Part shown: positions 10,883 to 57,816 of the stretch, piece after piece
How the letters are laid out: every line of letters begins with the position of its first letter
Numbering within the stretch: the stretch's first letter is position 1
NCBI GenBank assembly: GCA_017466405.1
Contig: JAFTUF010000012.1
Location: 1 to 64,000 of the forward strand
Direction: 5' to 3'
DNA: 64,000 bases
From: Bacteroidales bacterium
Lineage (GTDB): Bacteria; Bacteroidota; Bacteroidia; Bacteroidales; F082
Translations under genes and position numbers: made by a program
Notes under the pieces: model-generated
The model's database searches: none
What the model saw: the letters and a program-made list of their open reading frames with translations, nothing else
Told to the model about the DNA's origin: nothing

Positions 10883-10966
10883 ATACTTTTCTTTTTTGAT
10901 GGCTTATTTTATCACATGAAAATTTTTCATATTTTTGAGAACGTCAAGACATTATATTTATTTAAA

Positions 10967-12178
10967 ATGAAAGCACTTGAATCACTAAGACTTAAATTAC
11001 ATAAGAATGCTGAGCTGTCGGGTCAGGAAAAGGAAACTAATAAGATTTTGAATAATTTCTTGGAGAAGACAAATCCCGACATTCATCTGAGAAAAATCGG
11101 CGGCTACGGAATACTTGTCGTCTTTAAGGGAAAGAATGAAGGAAAAAACATTCTGCTGAGAGCCGACATCGACGGATTGAATATTCCAATGTGTGAATGT
11201 CAACAGTCAACAGACAACAGTCAACAGACTTTGTCAAAGTCAGAGTCAATGTCCAAGTCAGAGTCAATGTCCAAGTCAGAGTCAATGTCCAAGTCCCCAC
11301 GTCAATTTTCTCATCGTTGCGGTCATGACGGTCATGCTGCCATTTTATGTGGATTGGCGAAAGCTTATTCCAAGGAGCGTCCTGAGCGCGGCAATGTGAT
11401 ACTACTCTTCCAAGCTGCCGAAGAGACAGGTGAAGGAGCGCAAGCCATCCTCGACGACCCACTCTTTCAAGAGTTTAAAATAGACGCCGCCTTTGCATTG
11501 CACAACCTCCCCGGATATGCAAAACATCAGATAGTGCTGAAGAAAGAATGCTTCGCCTCTGCATCGCAGGGACTGAAACTCATCTTCGATGGAAAGACAT
11601 CGCACGCCTCGCAACCTGACAAGGGCAACAACCCGCAACAACTCATCACGACATTGTTAGATGCCTTTCAGAAAAAATACGAGAGTCTTAGAAGAGATAA
11701 ATACCGCACCATCCTCACTGTGACACACGTCGTTATAGGCGAAGAGACATTCGGAGTCACACCTGGTCACGCTGAGATTTGGATGACGCTGAGAAGTCAG
11801 AACGACAAGTCGTTACAAAACCTGACAGAAAGCACGATAGCATTATGCGAATTCGCCGCCAAAGAGTCGGACTTGGATTTCACCTACAGCATACACGAGG
11901 CTTTTGCAGCGACGATAAATTCAAGTAGAGAAACCGACATAGTAGAGAAATCCGCACAAGAATTAAAATTGTCGGTCAACATGATAAAAGACGCTTTCCC
12001 TTGGTCGGAAGATTTCGGACGTTTCGGAAGTATATGTCCTATTTGTCTTTTCGGTTTAGGCTGCGGCTTAGAACACGAGCCTCTTCATAGCCCGAGATAT
12101 GAGTTTGAAGACGAAATCATTGATACGGGAGTTGACGTATTTAAGAGAATAGTAAAAATTGAGAATCTGAAAAATTGA
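10967..12178 (+). CDS. M20 family amidohydrolase (peptidase/aminoacylase type) with repeat-derived insertion
   Basis: 403 residues from the ATG at 10967. The open frame reaches 10916, but the family begins at the LRLKLHKNAELSG motif. Metal-site motifs are RADIDG (65-70), CGHDGH (118-123), EETGEGA and EHEPLHSP. Such enzymes hydrolyse N-acyl amino acids or related amides. Between DIDG and HRCGHD, where relatives have about 20 residues, residues 79-110 are QQSTDNSQQ followed by three copies of SKSESM, encoded by a heptamer repeat and an 18-base tandem repeat. The frame and catalytic residues are intact, so activity is probably kept. The C-terminal tail IENLKN and the stop also come from repeat-like sequence. 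Confidence 0.85.
   Translation: MKALESLRLKLHKNAELSGQEKETNKILNNFLEKTNPDIHLRKIGGYGILVVFKGKNEGKNILLRADIDGLNIPMCECQQSTDNSQQTLSKSESMSKSESMSKSESMSKSPRQFSHRCGHDGHAAILCGLAKAYSKERPERGNVILLFQAAEETGEGAQAILDDPLFQEFKIDAAFALHNLPGYAKHQIVLKKECFASASQGLKLIFDGKTSHASQPDKGNNPQQLITTLLDAFQKKYESLRRDKYRTILTVTHVVIGEETFGVTPGHAEIWMTLRSQNDKSLQNLTESTIALCEFAAKESDLDFTYSIHEAFAATINSSRETDIVEKSAQELKLSVNMIKDAFPWSEDFGRFGSICPICLFGLGCGLEHEPLHSPRYEFEDEIIDTGVDVFKRIVKIENLKN
11198..11298 (+). repeat. In-gene repeat: heptamer block plus 18-base tandem repeat
   Basis: 11201-11227 is a CAACAGT/CAACAGA-type heptamer block identical in sequence to 12288-12314 and 16205-16231 (reverse complement). It is followed at 11233-11296 by an 18-base unit (GTCCAAGTCAGAGTCAAT) in about three and a half copies. 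The block lies wholly within the M20 gene and keeps its frame. Confidence 0.9.
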
Positions 12179-12191
12179 AAATTTAAAATTT
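12158..12191 (+). repeat. TTGAGAATCTGAAAAATTGAAA-type octamer/heptamer run at a gene end
   Basis: A short degenerate run of TTGAGAAT, CTGAAAAA and TTGAAAA units. It encodes the last residues of the M20 protein and provides its TGA stop. Confidence 0.5.
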
Positions 12192-12192
12192 G

Positions 12193-12250
12193 TAGAGACG
12201 CGCCAATCACACCTATGAAAAATTAACAAGAATGTGATTGACACGTCTGA
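12193..12250. repeat. Palindromic element, GAGACG-CAATCACA family, copy 1
   Basis: The left arm contains AGACG, CAATCACA and the right arm TGTGATTG, CGTCT, around a 17-20 base A/T-rich loop. The element sits just after the M20 gene and upstream of the LOG-family gene. Two further copies are at 12942-12997 and 45757-45809. Confidence 0.75.
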
Positions 12251-12287
12251 AAGTTGAAAATGATTCACGACAGTAATTCAAAAAAAT

Positions 12288-12316
12288 CTGTTGACTGTTG
12301 TCTGTTGACTGTTGTC
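12288..12316. repeat. Heptamer tandem repeat (CTGTTGA/CTGTTGT units), intergenic copy
   Basis: Four degenerate 7-base units. 12288-12314 is identical to the reverse complement of the in-gene block at 11201-11227. It lies immediately upstream of the -7 element of the LOG-family gene, in the -33 region. Confidence 0.85.
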
Positions 12317-12322
12317 TTTTAT

Positions 12323-12330
12323 TATCTTTG
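12323..12330 (+). promoter_or_regulatory. -7 promoter element for the LOG-family gene
   Basis: TATCTTTG, 20 bases upstream of the ATG at 12351. The region where the -33 element should lie is occupied by the heptamer repeat, which itself offers TTG triplets (for example 12298-12300, 22 bases upstream). Confidence 0.65.
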
Positions 12331-12350
12331 CAATCTAAACATTTACACTG

Positions 12351-12938
12351 ATGAAGATATGTGTGTTTTGCGGAAGCAGCATGGGTAACGACATCCGATA
12401 TCAGGAGGCTGCTGCCCGACTTGGCGAGGTGCTCGCTCAAAACGACTGCACTTTATATTATGGCGGAGGAAATGTCGGCCTTATGAAAGTCATTGCCGAC
12501 AAGATGATTGAGCGAGGGAAAGAAGTCATTGGCGTGATGCCGAACCTTATCCTCGAGATGGAGATTGGTCACGACGGAATATCGAAGATGGTAGAAGTCG
12601 ATTCGATGTCGGAAAGAAAGACCATATTAATTAATGAGTCGGACGCCTTCATCGCCATGCCAGGAGGTTTCGGAACATTAGACGAACTTTTTGAGATAGT
12701 AGTCTTAAATCAATTACGCATCACCGACAAACCAGTCGCTCTTTACAACACACTGAATTATTACGACAGTTTGATAAATTTCATCGACCACGGAGTAAGT
12801 CAGGGTTTTATTCGCAAAGAACACCGCGACAACATCATCGTCAGTGATAATCCGGAGACATTATTTCAAGAATTAAGCAGACATAAATCCATCGATATCA
12901 AACAATGGATTGAAGATATAAAAGAAGAAAGCAAATAA
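12351..12938 (+). CDS. LOG family protein (TIGR00730), Rossmann-fold nucleotide phosphoribohydrolase-like
   Basis: 195 residues. The family signature PGGFGTLDE is present (MPGGFGTLDELFE), preceded by the GGGNVGLM loop that binds the nucleotide phosphate. Proteins of this family (LOG, formerly called lysine decarboxylase-like) release the free base from cytokinin or nucleoside 5'-monophosphates; the bacterial substrate is uncertain. The gene is monocistronic-looking, flanked by two copies of the GAGACG palindromic element. Confidence 0.85.
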   Translation: MKICVFCGSSMGNDIRYQEAAARLGEVLAQNDCTLYYGGGNVGLMKVIADKMIERGKEVIGVMPNLILEMEIGHDGISKMVEVDSMSERKTILINESDAFIAMPGGFGTLDELFEIVVLNQLRITDKPVALYNTLNYYDSLINFIDHGVSQGFIRKEHRDNIIVSDNPETLFQELSRHKSIDIKQWIEDIKEESK

Positions 12939-12941
12939 AAG

Positions 12942-12997
12942 TAGAGACGTATCAATTACACCAATAAAATAAACAATCTGTAATTGCAGCGTCTCAT
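12942..12997. repeat. Palindromic element, GAGACG-CAATTACA family, copy 2
   Basis: Left arm GAGACG, CAATTACA; right arm TGTAATTG, CGTCTC; loop of about 17 A/T-rich bases. It begins three bases after the LOG-family stop codon and could act as a transcript-ending hairpin. Compared with copy 1, one base pair differs on both arms (C-G there, T-A here). Confidence 0.75.
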
Positions 12998-13024
12998 TTA
13001 ATTAAGAATTCAAACGACAACAAT

Positions 13025-14062
13025 ATGAACATCATAGGAATCACAGGAACATTAGGAGCAGGCAAAGGAACAATCGTAGATTATCTCGTCAAGGAGAAAG
13101 GCTACGTCCATTATTCTGTTCGTTCTTTCATAGCTGAAGAAATAAAGAAAAGAGGTTTAGAAGTGAACCGCGACACTCTCACTGAAGTTGGCAACGACTT
13201 AAGAGCAAAGCATTCGCCTAGTTATATTGCGACGCAACTTTATGAAAGAGCCTTTGCTACAGGCAAGAACGCCGTCATTGAAAGCATACGTGCTATAGGC
13301 GAAGTCAACGCGCTCCGTTCAAAAGGCAACTTCTATCTCTTCGCCGTTGACGCTGATAGAAAGACACGTTATCAACGTATTAGTGAAAGAAAGTCAGAGA
13401 CTGATGCCGTTTCTTTCGACACCTTCGTCGCCAATGAAGAACGCGAGATGAACTCCGACGACCCTAACAAACAGAATATCGCTGCTTGCATCAAAGAGGC
13501 AAACTACGTTTTTATGAACGACGGCAGCATTGAAGATTTGCATAAGAAAGTTGAAGAAGTCTTGCAGAAGATTGGAGAGACCGAATACAAGAGACCTAGC
13601 TGGGACGAGTATTTCATGAATTTAGCCGACACTGTCGCTGAGAGAGCTACATGTAACAGAGGACGTAGCGGCTGCGTCATAGTGAAAGACCGTCAGATTT
13701 TGGTGACAGGTTATGTCGGAGCTCCGACAGGATTGCCACACTGCGACGAGGTCGGTCACCTTTTCAAGAAGATGATTCATGAAGACGGACATATAACGCA
13801 ACACTGTGTCAGGACAGTTCATGCTGAGCAGAACGCCATTGCACAGGCAGCGCGCAGAGGCATCGCTTTGGAAGGTAGCACCTTATATTGCAGGATGACA
13901 CCATGCAGAACATGCGCTATGTTGATAATAAACTGCGGAATCAAGAGAGTCGTTTGTCAGAGAAAATACCACGACTGTGCCGAATCGGAACAGATGTTCA
14001 AGATGGCTGGAATACAATTAGAATACATCTACGAAGAGGTGCAGCAATATGATAGACAATGA
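13025..14062 (+). CDS. Fusion protein: P-loop nucleotide/dephospho-CoA kinase-like domain plus dCMP deaminase
   Basis: 345 residues in two domains. Residues 1-185 are a P-loop kinase-like domain with Walker A GTLGAGKGT (8-16), resembling dephospho-CoA or nucleoside monophosphate kinases. Residues 190-340 are a zinc-dependent cytidine-deaminase fold with H266-A-E268 and PCRTC (C294, C297), of the dCMP deaminase (ComEB) type, which converts dCMP to dUMP for dTMP synthesis. Yeast dCMP deaminase also carries an N-terminal P-loop region, so the arrangement has a precedent. The role of the kinase domain is unknown; nucleotide sensing or monophosphate phosphorylation are possible. No thymidylate gene is adjacent. 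Confidence 0.85.
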   Translation: MNIIGITGTLGAGKGTIVDYLVKEKGYVHYSVRSFIAEEIKKRGLEVNRDTLTEVGNDLRAKHSPSYIATQLYERAFATGKNAVIESIRAIGEVNALRSKGNFYLFAVDADRKTRYQRISERKSETDAVSFDTFVANEEREMNSDDPNKQNIAACIKEANYVFMNDGSIEDLHKKVEEVLQKIGETEYKRPSWDEYFMNLADTVAERATCNRGRSGCVIVKDRQILVTGYVGAPTGLPHCDEVGHLFKKMIHEDGHITQHCVRTVHAEQNAIAQAARRGIALEGSTLYCRMTPCRTCAMLIINCGIKRVVCQRKYHDCAESEQMFKMAGIQLEYIYEEVQQYDRQ

Positions 14063-14100
14063 CATTGACTGTTGACATTGACGTTGACTATCGACAGTGA
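14058..14100. repeat. Degenerate TGACATTGACTGTTGAC-type repeat
   Basis: Runs of TTGACA, TTGACT and TTGACG units fill the whole spacer between two convergent genes. Confidence 0.6.
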
Positions 14101-14544
14101 CTATCTTTTTCGCTCAAAGAAATCTTTTAACACTTTAAGGCATTCATCATAGAGGATGCCTTTTTGTGTTTTTGTCTTAGGATGAAGAAGGTTGCCATAT
14201 TTACTGAAGCCGTTTTTCTTATCGTCGCAGGCCCACACCACTCTACTGATATGCGAATGAGCCAGAGCGCCCGCACACATCACGCAAGGTTCCAAGGTGA
14301 CATATAAGGTACAGTCGTCAAGATATTTGGCTCCCATAGTATTGAAGGCCGATGTCAGTGCCAACATCTCGGCATGCGCTGTGACATCGTTCAGCTGTTC
14401 AACCTGATTATGCGCTCTCGAGATTATCTTATCGTTGCACACTATAACAGCGCCAACAGGCACTTCGTCACTCTCTTCTGCTTTGAGAGCTTCGTTAAGT
14501 GCCTGTTGCATATAATATTCATCAGAAAAAACCGACAGTTTCAT
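14101..14544 (-). CDS. tadA: tRNA-specific adenosine deaminase
   Basis: 147 residues with zinc-site motifs HAE (57-59) and PCVMC (86-90), the TadA/Tad2 arrangement. It converts A34 to inosine in the wobble position of tRNA-Arg(ACG). Length and the basic C-terminal helix (LKDFFERKR) fit TadA rather than a free-base cytosine or guanine deaminase, though the two subfamilies are close. Last gene of a likely operon with the MORN lipoprotein (1-base gap), dihydroorotase and glycosyltransferase. Confidence 0.85.
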   Translation of the reverse strand: MKLSVFSDEYYMQQALNEALKAEESDEVPVGAVIVCNDKIISRAHNQVEQLNDVTAHAEMLALTSAFNTMGAKYLDDCTLYVTLEPCVMCAGALAHSHISRVVWACDDKKNGFSKYGNLLHPKTKTQKGILYDECLKVLKDFFERKR

Positions 14545-14545
14545 C

Positions 14546-14974
14546 TCAGTCTCTGTTTACTTCATACATAAAGTTACCTTCTTCGTCGTAGAACTTCCAG
14601 ATGCCACGTTCAACGCCATTCTCATAGACGCCTTCATATCTCACTTTTCCATTCTCATGATAAACAGTAGCTTTACCGACTCTCTTTCCATCGATAAATT
14701 CTCCTCTGCTCATCACTATACCCGACTTGAAATACGACTCAAAAATACCATTTCTTTTTCCATCTGCAATAGGTCCGTCAAGATATTTCATTCCCTCTTC
14801 GTAGTACCAAGTCTCCCTTACGCAAGTCTTGCTTCCGTCTTCATTTACTTTATGATAACGAACTTCTTTCTTGTTTCCATTTTCGTGTTTAGTTATGACT
14901 TCCTCTACGAGTTCATTCTCTGAACATGAAAAGAACGCGAACATCATCAAAAAGAACAATGCTATCTTCTTCAT
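14546..14974 (-). CDS. MORN-type repeat lipoprotein (YwqK-like)
   Basis: 142 residues. The N-terminus has a lipoprotein signal ending FFSC. The rest consists of repeated G-x-x-x-G-x-(Y/F)-x-x-(Y/F)-x-x-G units, seen as GPIADGKRNGIFESYF, GEFIDGKRVGKATVYH and GVYENGVERGIWKFYD, which is the MORN-like repeat annotated as YwqK-family. The annotation name antitoxin for this family is unreliable, and no toxin is adjacent. It probably sits on the periplasmic side of a membrane; function unknown. It is packed between dihydroorotase and tadA. Confidence 0.75.
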   Translation of the reverse strand: MKKIALFFLMMFAFFSCSENELVEEVITKHENGNKKEVRYHKVNEDGSKTCVRETWYYEEGMKYLDGPIADGKRNGIFESYFKSGIVMSRGEFIDGKRVGKATVYHENGKVRYEGVYENGVERGIWKFYDEEGNFMYEVNRD

Positions 14975-14977
14975 AAT

Positions 14978-16339
14978 TTATCTGTTAAATGTTAATCGTT
15001 CGCCTCTGTAATCTTCCTTAAAATCGCCATTATGATATACCAGTTCACCATTGACGAAAGTATGTGTCACGCTATTACTCAACTTCATTCCAGAGTAAGC
15101 TGTCCAACCGCATTTATAATAAACGTCAGCATTAGTGACAACATGCTCATGATTTGGATTTATAAGAACCAAGTCGGCGTAATAACCTTCTCTGATAAAA
15201 CCTCTCTTGTTGATTCTATACAATATTGCAGGATTATGTGAGAGAAGTTCCACCACTTTCTCTATCGTCATGACACCTTTCTTAGCGAGTTCCAAAGCTC
15301 CTAAGAGAAGATGCTGAATTGATGTTCCACCTGAAGGCGCTGAGAAATAAGGTTTGTTCTTTTCTTCAAAAGTATGAGGCGCGTGGTCGGTAGCCAATAT
15401 ATCGATATGATTATCAATACAGGCTTGTATCAACGCCAGCTTATCGCTTTCGGTCTTGACAGCAGGATTGCATTTCAGGAGATTTCCTTTCGATTGATAA
15501 TCTCTTTCGTCGAACAAGAGATAATGAAGACAAGTCTCAGCTGTTATTTTTTTATCTTTAAGAGGAATATTGTTTGAGAACAATCCTATTTCCTTTGCTG
15601 TAGAAAGATGTAAGATATGCAGCTGTGTTCCATATTTAGATGCGAGTTCAGCAGCTTGCGACGAAGTTTTATAACAAGCCTCAGCGCTGCGTATCAATGG
15701 ATGCACTGATGCAGGAGCAGCGTCGCCATATTTCTCCTTGAAGATTTCCATGTTTCTGCGAATTATATCTTCGTCTTCGCAATGTGTAGCGATGAGACAT
15801 GGAGCTTCTTGAAAGAGTCGCTGCAACGTTGCGCTGTTGTTAACCAACATATTACCAGTGCTGGAACCCATAAACACCTTGATACCGCAGACATCTTTAG
15901 GATTAGTCTTCAGCACCTCATCAATATTGTCGTTAGAAGCTCCCATGTAGAAAGAATAATTCGCCATGGAGCTATCTGCTGCTATATCGTATTTATCTTG
16001 CAAGAGTTGCTGTGTCAATGTATTAGGAACTGTGTTAGGCATATCCATGAAAGAAGTCACGCCGCCTGCTACGGCAGCTCTGCTTTCAGAAGCGATATTG
16101 CCTTTATGCGTCAAGCCAGGTTCGCGGAAATGCACCTGATCGTCGATAGCTCCTGGTAATAAAAGAAGTCCATTTGCATCTATAACTTCATAGTTATCAT
16201 ATATCTGTTGACTGTTGTCTGTTGACTGTTGACCATCAACAGGAATAATCTTTTCTATAATGCCATCTGAAATGACAACACTTGCCAAGAAAGACTTACC
16301 TTCATTGACAAGTGTTGCATTTTTAATTAAGTAATTCAT
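14978..16339 (-). CDS. pyrC: Dihydroorotase with repeat-derived insertion
   Basis: 453 residues, metallo-dependent amidohydrolase of pyrimidine synthesis (carbamoyl aspartate to dihydroorotate). Hallmarks are DDQVHFREPG (residues 66-75), GIKVFMGSSTGN with the lysine that is carbamylated in the family, HCEDED, HILHLS and the ATDHAPH catalytic aspartate. The first histidine of the usual HxH pair is glutamine (QVH), the form I recall as normal for Bacteroidetes. Residues 37-45 are QQSTDNSQQ, encoded by the heptamer block at 16205-16231, in the loop before VIDANG where relatives are shorter. Its start overlaps the glycosyltransferase stop by four bases. Confidence 0.92.
   Translation of the reverse strand: MNYLIKNATLVNEGKSFLASVVISDGIIEKIIPVDGQQSTDNSQQIYDNYEVIDANGLLLLPGAIDDQVHFREPGLTHKGNIASESRAAVAGGVTSFMDMPNTVPNTLTQQLLQDKYDIAADSSMANYSFYMGASNDNIDEVLKTNPKDVCGIKVFMGSSTGNMLVNNSATLQRLFQEAPCLIATHCEDEDIIRRNMEIFKEKYGDAAPASVHPLIRSAEACYKTSSQAAELASKYGTQLHILHLSTAKEIGLFSNNIPLKDKKITAETCLHYLLFDERDYQSKGNLLKCNPAVKTESDKLALIQACIDNHIDILATDHAPHTFEEKNKPYFSAPSGGTSIQHLLLGALELAKKGVMTIEKVVELLSHNPAILYRINKRGFIREGYYADLVLINPNHEHVVTNADVYYKCGWTAYSGMKLSNSVTHTFVNGELVYHNGDFKEDYRGERLTFNR
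16205..16233. repeat. In-gene heptamer repeat inside dihydroorotase
   Basis: On the plus strand it reads CTGTTGA/CTGTTGT units; in the gene sense it is the CAACAGT strand. 16205-16231 is the exact reverse complement of 11201-11227 and encodes the same nine residues, QQSTDNSQQ. Confidence 0.9.
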
Positions 16340-17192: not shown

Positions 17193-19703
17193 TTATTCTT
17201 GAAAATAAATACGTTTCACTCTCTGTGATATGCTTGTCAGAATCTCGTATGGTATCGTATCACACACTTCTGCTATCCTCTCCACAGAGTAGTTCTCATC
17301 GAACAATATAGCCGTGTCGTTTTCCTTGCAATCTATTCCCGTCAAGTCAATCATACACATGTCCATGCATATATTTCCGATAATAGGAGCAGCTTTCCCA
17401 TTAACATAAAAACTAATCGCTCCATTGCCGAGTTGTCTCTTTAATCCGTCGGCATAACCAATAGGCACAACGCCAATCCTCGACTTTTTATTTATCACGC
17501 CGCGTCTGCTGTAGCCTATGGTCTCGCCCACCTCATATTCTTTAATCTGTACTATTGTCGTCTTCAAAGAAACAACGGTTTTCAGTTTTCCACGGTCTTC
17601 CTCACAAGGCGGGATACCATAAACACCGATACCTAATCTAACCATATCATATTGATACTCCGAGAATCGACTGATACCTGCGCTATTTAGGATATGACGA
17701 AGAATCTTATATGGCAAGGCTGCTACGATCTTGGAGCTCATCGCCTCGAAATTATCCAACTGTTGCTTAGTGAAATAATCAAAGTCTTCACTGTCGCTAC
17801 CTGCGAGATGAGAATACGCACTCTTAACAATTATATTCTTATTATTATTCAAGCGCTTCAAAAGTTCATCTATCTCTTCCGGCAGAAAGCCAAGACGATG
17901 CATTCCTGTATCGAGTTTAATGTGAATTCCTATTGGCGAAGTCAAGGGTGAATCTAACTTCTCTATCGCTTCTTCGAGCAACGACAGACATCTGAAGCTA
18001 TAAATATCAGGCTCAAGATTATTCTTTATGATAGTTTCAAAGGTATTGATTTCCGGCGTCATCACCATGATTGGAAGATTGATTCCTCTACGCCTAAGTT
18101 CTACGCCCTCATCGGCATACGCGACGGTGAGATAGTCGGCACGGTGAAATTCAAGGACATTAGATACTTCAAAATTACCGCTTCCGTATGCAAATGCCTT
18201 CACCATCACCATCAACTTAGTATCGTTCTTCAATTTGGAACGATAGTAGTTCATATTCTTAACGAGATTATTAAGATTTATCTCAAGAACCGTCTCATGA
18301 GCCTTTTCTTGTAAGACCTTACTAATCTTCTCAAACTCAAAATCACGAGCTCCTTTTAAGAGAATCAAATAATTATGAAAGGCATCCAGTTGATGTTTGA
18401 TCAAAAACTCACTGGTGTTTTTATAAAAAGCCTTCTCAACATCAAATTTATCTTTCTGTCTGCTGATAGCTTCTCCTATTCCTATCAACTTATTAACGCC
18501 TTTGTTTTTAAGAAGTTGCGCTATTTTCTCATATAACTCTTCTTCCTTCAACTCACTTTGCAAAATATCCGACAATATAACAACACGCTCTTTGTTGTGA
18601 TACTGCTGATTCATAAAATCAAGAGCTATCGTAAGCGAATTGAAATCAGAGTTATAACTATCGTTGATAATCTCGCAGTTGTTGATTCCCGACTTAAGCT
18701 CCATCCGCATCGCGATAGGACTTAAATATCGCATCTTCTTTCTTATAACATCCTCCGACACATTAAGTATCAAAGCTGCGAGCCAACAATGTATTGCATT
18801 TTCAATAGAAGCGTCATCGGTGAAAGGAATTCTTATTTCATGAGACTGAGAAACTGAGAAACTGAGAAACTGAGAAGTATTGAAGACAGCTGATATTACC
18901 GTTTCTTCTTCATCTTTTTCTATTGAAGAAATTTGCACGTCAGCATTTTTATCGTTACGGCTCCATGAAAAAGCTTTGATTCCTAAACTATTTACAGCTT
19001 CTTTTATCTCTTTATAATCAGAACAATATATTAATGTATCAACATCATAGAAGAGTTTTAACTTCTCCTCAACTTTAACATTTATATTTTCAAAGTTCTT
19101 TCCATGAGCCTGACCTATGTTGGTAAAAATACCGATAGTAGGCTGGATAATATCTTTCAGATTTTGCATCTCATTCGTTCTGGATATGCCAGCTTCAAAA
19201 ATCGCAATATCATGCGTCTCATTTAGTTGCCATATTGAAAGAGGAACTCCTATCTGAGAGTTGTAGCTTTTAGGACTTCGAGCGACAGCCTTTTCTGGAC
19301 TTAATATCTGATAAAGCCACTCCTTTGTTATTGTTTTTCCGTTGCTACCTGTTATGCCTATTATTGGAATATTGAAATTGTTTCGATGATATGTCGCTAT
19401 ACACTGAAGCGCTTTCAAGGTATTATCGACTATGATAAAAGCAGCGTCGTTTCTGGTTTCATATAAATTTCGGATATATGGAGAATCTTCCACCACGAAA
19501 GATCTTACGCCTTTGTCATATAAATCTTCTATGTATTTATCGCCGTTATTACGATGTGTTTTCAAAGAAAAAAACAATGTATTTTCAGGAGAAAGGAGCA
19601 AGCGGCTATCAAAAAGTAACTCTCTGACGACAAGAGATTTGCCTTCTTTCGACAATAAATTTCCATTAACTATCGACGCTATTTTTTCTACAGTATATAT
19701 CAT
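17193..19703 (-). CDS. Bifunctional UDP-N-acetylmuramoyl-tripeptide--D-Ala-D-Ala ligase / alanine racemase
   Basis: 836 residues combining two peptidoglycan enzymes. Residues 1-465 are MurF, with the ATP-binding loop GITGSNGKTITKEW (116-129) and NDSYNSD. Residues 470-836 are a PLP-dependent alanine racemase with the cofactor lysine in VKAFAYGSG (K502) and a C-terminal domain containing GYSRRG. The fusion supplies D-Ala and uses D-Ala-D-Ala in one chain and is common in Bacteroidetes. Residues 277-287 (SQFLSFSVSQS) are encoded by an octamer repeat and look inserted in the MurF middle domain. The start ATG nearly coincides with the predicted transcription start, so the mRNA may be leaderless. 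Confidence 0.93.
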   Translation of the reverse strand: MIYTVEKIASIVNGNLLSKEGKSLVVRELLFDSRLLLSPENTLFFSLKTHRNNGDKYIEDLYDKGVRSFVVEDSPYIRNLYETRNDAAFIIVDNTLKALQCIATYHRNNFNIPIIGITGSNGKTITKEWLYQILSPEKAVARSPKSYNSQIGVPLSIWQLNETHDIAIFEAGISRTNEMQNLKDIIQPTIGIFTNIGQAHGKNFENINVKVEEKLKLFYDVDTLIYCSDYKEIKEAVNSLGIKAFSWSRNDKNADVQISSIEKDEEETVISAVFNTSQFLSFSVSQSHEIRIPFTDDASIENAIHCWLAALILNVSEDVIRKKMRYLSPIAMRMELKSGINNCEIINDSYNSDFNSLTIALDFMNQQYHNKERVVILSDILQSELKEEELYEKIAQLLKNKGVNKLIGIGEAISRQKDKFDVEKAFYKNTSEFLIKHQLDAFHNYLILLKGARDFEFEKISKVLQEKAHETVLEINLNNLVKNMNYYRSKLKNDTKLMVMVKAFAYGSGNFEVSNVLEFHRADYLTVAYADEGVELRRRGINLPIMVMTPEINTFETIIKNNLEPDIYSFRCLSLLEEAIEKLDSPLTSPIGIHIKLDTGMHRLGFLPEEIDELLKRLNNNKNIIVKSAYSHLAGSDSEDFDYFTKQQLDNFEAMSSKIVAALPYKILRHILNSAGISRFSEYQYDMVRLGIGVYGIPPCEEDRGKLKTVVSLKTTIVQIKEYEVGETIGYSRRGVINKKSRIGVVPIGYADGLKRQLGNGAISFYVNGKAAPIIGNICMDMCMIDLTGIDCKENDTAILFDENYSVERIAEVCDTIPYEILTSISQRVKRIYFQE
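18840..18877. repeat. In-gene octamer tandem repeat (ACTGAGAA units) inside murF-alr
   Basis: Four to five copies of ACTGAGAA on the plus strand. In the gene sense (TTCTCAGT) the repeat is stop-free and encodes the cyclic peptide FSVSQFLS. Confidence 0.9.
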
Positions 19704-29422: not shown

Positions 29423-29494
29423 CAACAGTCAACGGACAACAGACAGCAGACTTCGTTCTCACAAACTGTTGACCGTTGACTGTTGACCGTTGAC
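29423..29494. repeat. Heptamer repeats in inverted arrangement
   Basis: CAACAGTCAACGGACAACAG (29423-29442) faces CTGTTGACCGTTGACTGTTG (29466-29485) and continues to 29494. The two arms are complementary over much of their length, so RNA from either strand would fold into a hairpin between purE and the rhomboid gene. Confidence 0.8.
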
Positions 29495-29502
29495 TCTAAA
29501 AC

Positions 29503-30246
29503 ATGGAAACTCAAGACGACAAACGGCTTCTGAAAAACAGTATCATCGTTCCGATTATATTGGTTCTGACAATGTTGTTGGTCGAGATTATTGAAGCTGT
29601 CTTTCATCTTGATTTTTCTTTCTTAGGCATCAAGCCTCTCTCTGTAGAAGGTCTCCCCGGAATATTTCTCTTTCATTTCCTTCATGGCGACTGGGAACAT
29701 CTTTTCGCCAATTCAATACCGATACTCGTCTTAGGCTCATCCTTATATTATTTCTATAAGCCGATAGCGAATAAGATTCTGCTCATACTGATGTTTTCCA
29801 CAGGTTTAATCACCTGGTGTTTGGCAAGAAGCGGCGTACATATAGGAGCCAGCGCCTTGGTTTATGGACTGACATTCTTCTTGATGCTCAGCGGTTTCAT
29901 CAGGAGGGAGAAAAAAACAGTTATCATATCACTGATTGTAGTCTTTCTTTATGGAAGTCTCGTATGGGGATTATATCCAAAATACGCCATCGAGAACAAT
30001 ATCTCGTGGGAAGGACATCTCTCCGGTTTCATAATGGGAATAGTGTTAGCATTCTTCTACAGAAAAGAAGGACCTCAACGGGAAGAACACGTTTGGGAAG
30101 AGGAGGACGAGGACGGGGACGGGAACGAGAACGGGGACGGGGACGGGAACGGGGACGGGGACGGGGACGGGAACGAGAAACCGTATTGGGATATTCCAGA
30201 GCCTGATAAAGACGAACTTACGGTAATTTATCGGTTTAGAAAATAG
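29503..30246 (+). CDS. Rhomboid-family intramembrane serine protease with repeat-derived tail insertion
   Basis: 247 residues with about six membrane segments. The rhomboid motifs are HGDWEHLFAN (H66, N70), the nucleophile S117 in GASALVYG and the paired histidine H172 in EGHLSG, so it should be an active protease cutting substrates within the membrane. Residues 202-225 are an acidic glycine-rich run made of DG, NG and NE pairs encoded by a GGGGAC hexamer repeat; the ordinary tail resumes with KPYWDIPEPDKDE. The insertion is on the cytoplasmic tail, away from the catalytic core. Confidence 0.88.
   Translation: METQDDKRLLKNSIIVPIILVLTMLLVEIIEAVFHLDFSFLGIKPLSVEGLPGIFLFHFLHGDWEHLFANSIPILVLGSSLYYFYKPIANKILLILMFSTGLITWCLARSGVHIGASALVYGLTFFLMLSGFIRREKKTVIISLIVVFLYGSLVWGLYPKYAIENNISWEGHLSGFIMGIVLAFFYRKEGPQREEHVWEEEDEDGDGNENGDGDGNGDGDGDGNEKPYWDIPEPDKDELTVIYRFRK
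30106..30177 (+). repeat. In-gene hexamer repeat (GGGGAC/GGGAAC units)
   Basis: About twelve degenerate six-base units within the rhomboid gene, encoding alternating Gly and Asp/Asn. The length is a multiple of three, so the frame is kept. Confidence 0.9.
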
Positions 30247-41757: not shown

Positions 41758-41789
41758 TCTGTTGTCTGTTGACCGTTGTCTGTTGTCAT
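41758..41789. repeat. Heptamer repeat (CTGTTGT/CTGTTGA units), intergenic
   Basis: Four units directly abut the hexamer block. Orientation is the stop-containing strand relative to the downstream hpt gene. Confidence 0.8.
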
Positions 41790-50915: not shown

Positions 50916-51626
50916 TTACGCTCTAAAAGCCATCGCTTCTATCACATAGAACAATATCACGAAAGGTATAGCTGCGAATCCTAAGAAGATAAAAGCAACA
51001 AGAGCGAAAATCGCGAGTATATATATCCTAATATTTTCCTTAAATCTTAAATTCTTAATCTTCAGTGAGAAGAAAGGAATCTCGCTTACCATCAGGAAGC
51101 TGAATATCGCTATCACAGCAAGAAGAAAATAAGGATTTGTGATAAGCCCTCCCATGAAAGCGAGTGATTCATTCATCAAAGTGAAAGACAGTGACGCCAC
51201 AAAGAGTCCCATCGCTGGAGTAGGAAGTCCGATGAACGAGGTGGTCTGACGATCGTCGATATTGAATTTAGCAAGACGTAAAGCTGAAAACACTGCAAGG
51301 AAGAAAGCAGCAAAAGGCAAGACGTCGAAACCCGCTATCTCAAGCCACTGACCGTTGACTGTTGACTGTTGACTCAGATAATGATACATTATGAAAGAAG
51401 GCGCTACCCCGAAAGACACGACGTCGGAAAGAGAATCCAACTCGGCACCAAGCGGCGAATATGCCTTCAACAAACGAGCCGCAAAACCATCGAAGAAATC
51501 GAAGACAGCAGCGATGAATATCATAACGCCTGCAGCCGTCATCATGCCGTTACACGATAAGACCACAGAAATACAACCCGATAATAAATTACAACAGGTT
51601 ATCGAATTAGGAATATGTTTTATCAT
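50916..51626 (-). CDS. pssA: CDP-diacylglycerol--serine O-phosphatidyltransferase with repeat-derived insertion
   Basis: 236 residues, multi-spanning. The CDP-alcohol phosphatidyltransferase motif is complete: D43-x2-D46-G47-x2-A50-R51-x8-G60-x3-D64-x3-D68. It makes phosphatidylserine, the precursor of phosphatidylethanolamine. Residues 86-94 (QQSTVNGQW) are encoded by a heptamer repeat at 51349-51377, in the loop after the catalytic motif and before the next membrane segment, where the peptide seems extra compared with relatives. Confidence 0.93.
   Translation of the reverse strand: MIKHIPNSITCCNLLSGCISVVLSCNGMMTAAGVMIFIAAVFDFFDGFAARLLKAYSPLGAELDSLSDVVSFGVAPSFIMYHYLSQQSTVNGQWLEIAGFDVLPFAAFFLAVFSALRLAKFNIDDRQTTSFIGLPTPAMGLFVASLSFTLMNESLAFMGGLITNPYFLLAVIAIFSFLMVSEIPFFSLKIKNLRFKENIRIYILAIFALVAFIFLGFAAIPFVILFYVIEAMAFRA
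51349..51377. repeat. In-gene heptamer repeat inside pssA
   Basis: Units CTGTTGA and CCGTTGA on the plus strand. In the gene sense it is the CAACAGT strand, which is stop-free and encodes QQSTVN. Confidence 0.85.
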
Positions 51627-57734: not shown

Positions 57735-57816
57735 TTTGAAATTGAGAATCTGAGAAATTGAGAAACTGAAAACTTGAGAATTTTCAGTTTCTCAGATTCT
57801 CAGTTTCTGAGATTTA
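57735..57816. repeat. Octamer repeats in inverted orientation forming a long hairpin
   Basis: CTGAGAAATTGAGAAACTGA (57750-57769) faces TTTTCAGTTTCTCAGATTCT (57781-57800) around a short spacer, so the two arms are largely complementary. It sits between ettA and thiL. Confidence 0.85.

Follow-up and report, generated by a model that had tools for sequence, protein, structure and literature searches.

The window, a stretch of 64,000 nucleotides from the genome of a Bacteroidales bacterium, probably an inhabitant of the ruminant gut, contains short tandem arrays of heptamers in genes as well as in spacers. The genes and features considered here are listed below, with + and - denoting the strand.

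10916..12178, +: gene of an M20-family amidohydrolase, with an array in the loop preceding the CGHDGH motif
11199..11227, +: family A array in the M20 gene, four heptamer units (GTCAACA/GACAACA)
11228..11235, +: start of the tail, ACTTTGTC (consensus WCWTTGTCCAC), running into another repeat
11232..11295, +: second repeat of the M20 loop, 3.6 copies of an 18-bp unit encoding SKSESM
12288..12314, -: family A array preceding the LOG gene, assigned to the promoter class
12323..12330, +: TATCTTTG, similar to the Bacteroidota -7 promoter element
12351..12938, +: gene of the LOG family (Lysine_decarbox), preceded by the promoter-class array
14978..16339, -: dihydroorotase (PyrC) gene, with an array near the N-terminus
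16205..16233, -: family A array in the PyrC gene, four units, without the tail
18845..18876, -: octamer array, ACTGAGAA x4, in frame within a MurF-Alr fusion gene, kin of related word
29423..29442, +: family A array, three units, intergenic
29466..29492, -: family A array, four units, intergenic
41759..41785, -: family A array, four units, intergenic
51352..51371, -: family A array, three units, within a gene of the CDP-alcohol phosphatidyltransferase family

A preliminary description of this DNA had noted that two unrelated enzyme genes and a spacer share one 27-base block, and had regarded the peptide which it gives to both proteins as a sign of a mobile repeat. The block is indeed exact at 11201-11227, 12288-12314 and 16205-16231, on the strands reported; QQSTDNSQQ is present in the translations of both the M20 amidohydrolase and the dihydroorotase, and the two enzymes are unrelated, as judged from their Pfam domains (Peptidase_M20 and Amidohydro_1, respectively). 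An exact-match search of the same genome revealed a fourth copy, on contig C60, and no match to the pattern read backwards, which served as a control. With regard to viral spread, two exact matches to a uniform 27-base version of the block were found in IMG/VR, and no Rfam match at the gathering score was obtained within the window. The identity of the peptides is, however, trivial: because 7 and 3 have no common factor, a run of about three units, if in frame with the gene, yields one cyclic heptapeptide whichever of the three frames it falls into. Nor does the exact identity of the 27-mers mark a recent copy event. Among the 58 strict four-unit arrays 46 pairs are identical; column shuffles gave 35.5 on average, and 176 of 2000 shuffles reached 46 or more, which is within the expectation from the family consensus. 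The copies at the three positions are members of a large family and need not be a recent trio. The lack of a significant excess of identical 27-mers is in itself an observation that counts against copying of whole cassettes.

This family, called A, has the consensus GW(CAACRGW)3CAACAG and is composed of the words GTCAACA, GACAACA and GTCAACG. In the sampled third of the genome (808 kb) it is represented by 104 arrays, which extrapolates to approximately 300 in the whole genome. Four units are present in 63 of these arrays, two in 23, three in 16 and five in 2, with none of the 104 reaching six or more, and the conserved tail WCWTTGTCCAC follows 35 of them. CAACGG variants occupy units 1-4 in 10, 18, 15 and 4 of 58 arrays (p 0.007), so that the unit positions are not interchangeable. 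Tandem arrays of this kind are beyond chance, since 461 kb of the genome contained 33 arrays of period 7 and 29 of period 8, whereas second-order Markov sequence (built from 7 of 21 stretches) contained none of either period; no tandem arrays with periods 2-5 or 9 were found in the same 461 kb. Period 7 accounts for 122 of the 198 tandem arrays in 808 kb. The idea that four units arose by two doublings (ABAB) was rejected, as similarity at lag 2 did not exceed that at lag 1 and, for the period-7 arrays of the own genome, 767 of 1000 permutations reached the observed value.

A pattern combining the array with its tail was matched in 11 of 99 genomes of the genus, the own genome included (384 matches in total, 106 of them in the own genome), and a control pattern had no match in any of the 99. 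When 393 genomes of the order were drawn, the own genome was the sole positive, the other 392 giving no match. In a separate genome search the backward control was not neutral, since the pattern when reversed again forms a heptamer array; it gave 61 matches here, and 26 in genome G081, where the forward pattern had none.

Under a simple longest-ORF rule for gene calls, which is not an annotation, 33 of the 81 family A arrays with three or more units are located in ORFs of at least 80 aa. CAAC lies on the coding strand in 30 of the 33, and two of the three opposite cases fall at the 5' ends of probably over-extended ORFs. Among 104 arrays of all families, 52 are wholly outside ORFs, 33 inside and 19 on edges; as ORF-free DNA makes up 8.3% of the sequence and yet holds 52 of the 104, arrays are over-represented outside genes. 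The ORFs with family A arrays include those of an alpha-2-macroglobulin-like protein, Pol I, PyrC and the M20 amidohydrolase, and a Pfam domain was recognized in 31 of 32 scanned proteins with arrays of several families, a scan that left out six listed array-bearing ORFs.

The loop of the M20 enzyme (residues 86-135) has pLDDT below 50 in an AlphaFold2 model and is hypervariable in homologues, with 76 distinct loops, 7-46 residues long, among 121. When the flanks of two proteins are at least 95% identical (954 pairs), the loop is identical in only 146 pairs, although loop swaps between near-identical metagenome proteins may include misassemblies. The close homologue P0003 has a shorter version of the 18-bp repeat of this loop and P0004 has none, and the Pol I linker shows similar hypervariability. 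In the 96 of 99 same-genus genomes that gave a match to the M20 protein, the long loop is mostly lacking, the match breaking at about residues 92 and 129. The nearest named PyrC records are Bacteroidales MAGs. Absence of the block elsewhere in the genome, or presence of the same peptides at the same positions in distant homologues, had been named as speaking against insertion; a genome-wide search found it at many further sites, and no such occurrence of the peptides was seen. The proposal of a copy-paste repeat that entered genes thus holds as far as the repeat is dispersed, in frame, and located at sites where relatives are short or carry other sequence, while the act of copying is something we infer.

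The sister species, G107, was compared at coding sites. Twenty-five sites were queried; 12 were without an ortholog in the sampled part of G107, Big_5, read in a wrong frame, was left out, and at the 12 comparable ones the reading frame is open in both species in every case. Family A is kept at 6 of them, 5 bear a different or added repeat and 1 is empty. Different repeats at shared sites suggest that blocks were likely copied between places and overwritten. A tally of 25 site pairs with a crude pattern gave 12 with the same and 13 with another repeat, at least two of the latter being degenerate family A copies. Neither terminal inverted repeats nor target-site duplications, the marks of a MITE, were seen in the site pairs, for which the sister species is too diverged to provide a clean test, and no clean strain-level insertion with target duplication was seen at the compared sites. 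The vocabulary differs as well, TTTAGAC arrays numbering 125 in G046, 58 in G102, 10 here and 0 in G107. Family A arrays of G107 have two units in 25 cases, three in 14 and four in 15; they consist mostly of two units, and therefore a strict four-unit rule is weakened. For all period-7 arrays, four units were counted in 64 of 122 here and in 37 of 62 in G107, two-unit arrays being below the detection limit.

It may be asked whether each array originated where it now lies, a chance seed of one or two units having expanded by replication slippage, with nothing copied from other sites and with similar words recurring through sequence bias or selection. Steps of this kind do occur: PyrC differs from that of one relative by 21 bp, that is three units around a single-unit seed, one intergenic spacer differs from its relative by 7 bp, and two M20 proteins with 99.7% identical flanks differ by 7 residues. 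The PyrC and spacer steps, which slippage alone would yield, count against cassette copying. Octamer arrays, which reach 21 units, also behave as slippage predicts, the similarity of their units decaying with distance (0.894, 0.869, 0.853), and heptamers have been tied to the polymerase footprint in an idea put forward in PMC4679880 and PMC4692102. Heptamers, on the other hand, retain flat similarity (0.900, 0.895, 0.909) and in this genome never exceed five units, their consensus is position-specific along the array, and one word with one 11-base tail is present at about 100 places here while being absent from 88 genomes of the genus. We thus regard slippage as the sole source of the arrays as rather unlikely. 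Flat unit similarity is also expected from fast local expansion.

The explanation which we consider moderately probable is that family A is a clade-restricted heptamer family of the STRR/LSSR type, spread by copying of whole cassettes into sites tolerant of inserts, with local slippage in addition. Where replication or repair synthesis stalls or breaks, its end could re-prime on another array through short shared words; this would amount to template switching or gene conversion and would require no dedicated transposase. One-unit slippage steps might then adjust the copies locally. Selection would remove all inserts except those that are in frame and lie in loops or linkers, and genes would tolerate just the strand of the array free of stop codons, i.e. 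that with CAAC. Upstream of some genes the array may have become part of the promoter and been retained for this reason.

Alternatively, the cassette could be moved by a dedicated mobile-element enzyme, either a RAYT-type transposase acting on an imperfect hairpin at the tail end or a reverse transcriptase recopying a template RNA. The tail does pair with the adjacent unit (mean 7.1 of 10 pairs, compared with 1.7-3.9 when the register is slid), the fold is strong in one of the three elements that were folded (z about -4.7), and the other strand of the tail starts with GTGG, as do some REP elements. Full pairing of the stem is, however, found in just 3 of 60 elements, and covariation of the stem does not favour a conserved terminal hairpin (p 0.35, in the opposite direction). 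Neither enzyme is associated with carriage of the repeat: carriers had the RAYT family in 6 of 11 cases and non-carriers in 64 of 88 (p 0.29), and for RVT_1 the respective counts were 7 of 11 and 49 of 88 (p 0.75), incomplete MAGs being among these genomes; RVT_1 is missing from many-copy carriers such as G027. Both enzymes were rejected as drivers, and a dedicated enzyme appears improbable, although one from another family is conceivable. Slightly less credit still is given to a repeat-writing enzyme that makes genome-specific cassettes of 7- or 8-base words, commonly of four units, and pastes them into promoters and enzyme loops; if it existed, the repeat vocabulary of the whole genome would change from species to species.

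A separate problem is the role of the arrays upstream of genes. Twelve of the 104 family A arrays share a well conserved promoter-like frame, TGCAAAGATA..AAAAAG-array-ATTTTTTT, and TATCTTTG at 12323..12330, upstream of the LOG gene, resembles the Bacteroidota -7 promoter element. In nine relatives this position upstream of LOG is likewise occupied by arrays, with units of 7 or 8 bp and with words that differ; the word is TTTAGAC in G046 and G102, and TGTTGWC here and in G107. Promoter word and genome word were compared in these four genomes, and in the others their agreement is not clear. That frame and the conservation at LOG could indicate that arrays are functional binding or promoter elements under selection, whose spread into genes is a by-product. 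A general link between arrays and promoters was nevertheless rejected, as 7 of 66 arrays outside ORFs (all families) lie near a -7-like box, compared with a random mean of 5.96, and the functional reading leaves the copies within genes and the turnover of words unexplained; we consider it very unlikely. Least credible of all is an artefact of assembly or binning. Several contigs of this fragmented draft (69 contigs) do end at or near arrays, but the sites are in frame and preserve domains, and the repeats recur across 11 genomes as well as hundreds of proteins from metagenomes.

Bacterial heptamer arrays have been known for decades, and their mechanism has never been agreed upon. This clade offers a direct test, as its species differ at shared coding sites: where the first bears one repeat, its sister has a different one and a third species lacks any, with the frame preserved throughout. 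Fast-changing low-complexity inserts are tolerated by DNA polymerase I, PyrC, RecO, the MurF-Alr fusion and the M20 hydrolase, which bears on the origin of new loop sequence and on the 'divergent' proteins that gene prediction and protein clustering report from such genomes.

In the literature searched, comprising few subscription journals and no preprints, we found no account of family A or of in-frame arrays in Bacteroidales, and no paper contained CAACAGTCAACAG as an exact string. Rickettsia palindromic elements, to which the repeat had been likened, are also dispersed, short and in frame, and give similar peptides to unrelated proteins; according to the available part of PMC10969869 they are palindromic and about 150 bp long, whereas the elements described here are tandem heptamers of about 30-45 bp with a weak terminal hairpin at most. 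The TAACTGA repeats of Beggiatoaceae, Cyanobacteria and a few Bacteroidetes, as presented in the accessible sections of PMC4679880, are likewise direct heptamers, with a reverse orientation in ORFs that avoids stops, other heptamers mixed in, and neighbours devoid of them. Their word differs, they lie mostly immediately upstream of start codons, their in-gene copies are mainly at protein ends, and those sections contain no report of a fixed tail. Genome-wide heptamers at places shared among relatives in which the sequence varies are also known as the GGGAATC and GGGGA(C/T)T repeats of Xanthomonas and Nostoc, G-rich words whose four-unit bias was related to G-quadruplexes in PMC4692102; in family A, four units make up 63/104 arrays here and 15/54 in G107. 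The unit CAACRGW has no run of three G, and since four units are frequent in words unable to form G-quadruplexes, that explanation cannot be general. With REP sequences family A shares a short dispersed element and possibly a terminal hairpin with a GTGG end, but it differs from REP/RAYT systems in its four tandem heptamers, in a hairpin without covariation, and in that RAYT genes do not follow the element. Cyanobacterial STRR are degenerate tandem heptamers located at many dispersed places, with several words per genome, and of the comparisons made in the preliminary description this one fits best. Together with heptanucleotide LSSR, long simple sequence repeats with 7-bp units summarised in PMC4679880, they resemble family A in being degenerate, dispersed, represented by several words per genome and denser outside genes. 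Apart from its host, which belongs to Bacteroidales and not to cyanobacteria, family A differs from STRR and LSSR, as these are known, in having a conserved tail and many in-frame copies in core enzymes, and in the turnover of its words between sister species at shared coding sites.

The preliminary description placed three copies of a 27-base block in the window, and all three lie exactly at the positions it gave; the genome-wide search it proposed returned a fourth exact copy, on a different contig. The block belongs to a family of heptamer arrays, GW(CAACRGW)3CAACAG (family A), and its three copies fall in these arrays of the window:

11199..11227, forward strand, array in the M20 amidohydrolase gene
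12288..12314, reverse strand, array of the LOG-gene promoter class
16205..16233, reverse strand, array in the dihydroorotase gene (PyrC)

With up to one mismatch, a 20-base core has 97 matches in the source genome; among the further genomes searched it is present in 5 of 59 from the genus and in none of 40 from other families; its backward control was not neutral (61 matches in the source genome), because the reversed pattern is a heptamer array too. Two units followed by the family tail (up to two mismatches) gave 106 matches in the source genome and occurred in ten more genomes among 99 of the genus (384 matches over all 11 carriers), with none in 392 further genomes sampled across the order and a backward control of zero in 99/99 same-genus genomes. 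The named relatives nearest in PyrC are Bacteroidales MAGs, including some with the labels dairy cattle colon, yak cecum and water buffalo rectum, which points to a ruminant-gut Bacteroidales species as the likely host. Family A copies also lie within about 150 bases of the ends of four contigs of this genome (C3, C9, C35 and C47), so the repeats may break its assembly. A uniform version, CAACAGTCAACAGTCAACAGTCAACAG, is found on two viral contigs (L165 and L166, IMG/VR).

An 808-kb sample (33% of the genome) held 104 family A arrays of at least two units, which scales up to about 300 in the genome; 63 have four units, 23 two, 16 three and 2 five, and none of the 104 has more. The tail WCWTTGTC(CAC) follows 35 of them. 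Another 12 are framed like promoters, with TGCAAAGATA..AAAAAG at one flank and ATTTTTTT at the opposite one; none of the 104 has both tail and frame. All 8 occurrences of the strict tail in 461 kb adjoin a CAAC unit. Composition differs at some unit positions, CAACGG being found at positions 1-4 in 10, 18, 15 and 4 of 58 arrays (p 0.007).

Several array words coexist in the genome: those of family A (GTCAACA/GACAACA), TTGAAAG, AATTGACA, AATTATG, ACTATAA and others, with octamers of the AGTTGCTGA and CTGAGAAA types. At the threshold used, 461 kb contained 33 arrays of period 7, 29 of period 8 and none of periods 2-5 or 9; a Markov sequence control gave none. Arrays of all families in these 461 kb (n=104) lie outside ORFs in 52 cases, inside in 33 and on edges in 19, DNA free of ORFs making up only 8.3% of the sample. 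Four is the commonest unit number, counted with a detection limit that excludes two-unit arrays, both for period 7 (64/122 in the source genome, 37/62 in the sister species G107) and for octamers (21/64 and 16/33). Most of the spacer at window 57738-57814 is taken up by two oppositely oriented octamer arrays, which could fold into a long hairpin. A hexamer array at 30096-30179, with units GGGGAC/GGGAAC, codes for an acidic segment rich in D, G, N and E close to the C-terminus of a Rhomboid-family protein. Two spacers (12192-12249 and 12941-12995) carry imperfect hairpins starting GTAGAGACG, a sequence that elsewhere frequently adjoins arrays; G107 has a counterpart of the second spacer hairpin. 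In G117, a relative outside the clade, a CGATAAC-type array of period 7 reaches about 22 units (L161:12017-12171).

Family A arrays of at least three units lie inside ORFs of at least 80 aa in 33 of 81 cases, with CAAC on the coding strand in 30 of the 33; read on the reverse strand, CAACAGT units give TGA in all frames and CAACAGA units in none. A Pfam domain was found in 31 of the 32 array-bearing proteins scanned, all families included. Array-bearing genes include:

Pol I: family A copy between the exonuclease and polymerase parts
M20, PyrC, TatD, U32 peptidase: family A
PrmC-like methyltransferase, UDP-GlcNAc 2-epimerase, alpha-2-macroglobulin: family A
RecO, ABC ATPase, GH97, MurF-Alr fusion: octamers

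The peptide QQSTDNSQQ, taken earlier as a sign of a mobile repeat, does recur, as QQ(S/T)T(D/V)N(S/G/R)QQ, but this follows from the 7-bp unit cycling through all frames.

When M20 is compared with relatives, 96 of 99 genus genomes match, and in most of them the match is broken near residues 92 and 129, in keeping with the extra segment proposed earlier; the parts are separated by 3 to about 30 bp in the rows checked. Between the DGLNI and CGHDGH motifs, 121 proteins (the query and 120 homologues) have 76 distinct loops of 7 to 46 residues; among the 954 pairs whose flanks are at least 95% identical, the loop is shared in 146. P0047 and P0067 have unrelated loops between flanks 99.7% identical, the loops of P0094 and P0097 are one heptapeptide apart, and that of G107 is short (IPDGEKAFSH). 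Confidence in the AlphaFold2 model is modest, at a mean pLDDT of 67, and loop 86-135 lies below 50. In the spacer upstream of M20 (L151, L152), G102 and G040 have an identical long octamer inverted pair, which suggests recent exchange between the two species. In the Pol I linker, from LEFRTF(M/L) to QLDLF, low-complexity peptides vary by lineage (28 homologues aligned of 120 listed), and at the PyrC site four units in the source genome face a single unit, AGTCAACAAG, in a relative, a difference of 21 bp.

For 56 of 182 all-family arrays with usable flanks an orthologous site was found in 797 kb of G107. Of 25 coding sites compared, 12 were judgeable, and the reading frame is open in both species at all 12:

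Same family kept, 6: sulfatase, Eco57I-like, alpha-2-macroglobulin at 130, PyrC, MurF-Alr, glycosyltransferase
Different or added repeat, 5: TsaB-like, U32, PG_1098-like, alpha-2-macroglobulin at 822 and 1251
Empty, 1: M20

Genes of G107 also carry in-frame inserts of another dispersed, REP-like element (GTGCCTGAGCCTGTCGAAGGCA type, encoding VPEPVEGR), for example in L284 and L265, at sites matching L025:2609 and L256:16288; one of its copies lies within the heptamer array of a U32 peptidase gene. Peptides of the VPEHVEGK type also occur in M20 loops. One promoter carries four 7-bp units in the source genome and four 8-bp units in G107. The LOG promoter holds a 7- or 8-bp-unit array in nine relatives, in differing words, the array of G027 being degenerate; in the four genomes compared its word agrees with the genome word (TTTAGAC in G046 and G102, TGTTGWC in the source genome and G107). 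TTTAGAC arrays have 125 matches in G046, 84 in G026, 58 in G102, 10 in the source genome and 0 in G107.

Such arrays could originate by slippage, and unit-step differences between relatives, the lack of a significant excess of identical family A copies and the predominance of two units in family A of G107 (25 arrays, with 14 of three and 15 of four) speak against copying. On the other hand, a single word with its tail at many places within one clade, the position-specific consensus and the short unit numbers count for copying. Similarity of heptamer units is flat with distance (0.900, 0.895, 0.909 in 91 arrays; 0.886, 0.884, 0.896 in 47 arrays of G107), which favours copying, although rapid expansion in place with later mutation would produce it too; that of octamer units drops (0.894, 0.869, 0.853 in 26 arrays; 0.892, 0.847, 0.838 in 19 of G107). 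With arguments on both sides, spread of family A by copying is held likely rather than proven, slippage acting too. The likeliest mechanism would be template switching or gene conversion in the course of normal replication and repair. Neither candidate driver tracks carrier status: Y1 transposases (RAYT family) occur in 6/11 carriers and 64/88 others, RVT_1 in 7/11 and 49/88. The tail can pair with the unit before last at a mean of 7.1 of 10 pairs (slid registers, 1.7 to 3.9), pairing is full in only 3 of 60 elements, and the variable stem pair shows no covariation (p 0.35, opposite direction).

Of the comparisons drawn earlier, that with short tandem repeats holds in kind, while membership of the narrow, cyanobacterial STRRs and of the Rickettsia palindromic elements, which PMC10969869 summarises as lying in frame within genes, fails on the features tested, as does REP/RAYT membership. 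G-rich heptamers are reported to prefer four units, a preference tied in the part of PMC4692102 considered to G-quadruplexes, an account inapplicable to family A. Family A is in kind a set of heptanucleotide LSSR/STRR arrays, like the TAACTGA arrays described, in the portion of PMC4679880 drawn on here, from Beggiatoaceae, Cyanobacteria and five Bacteroidetes, whose in-gene copies lie mainly at protein ends.
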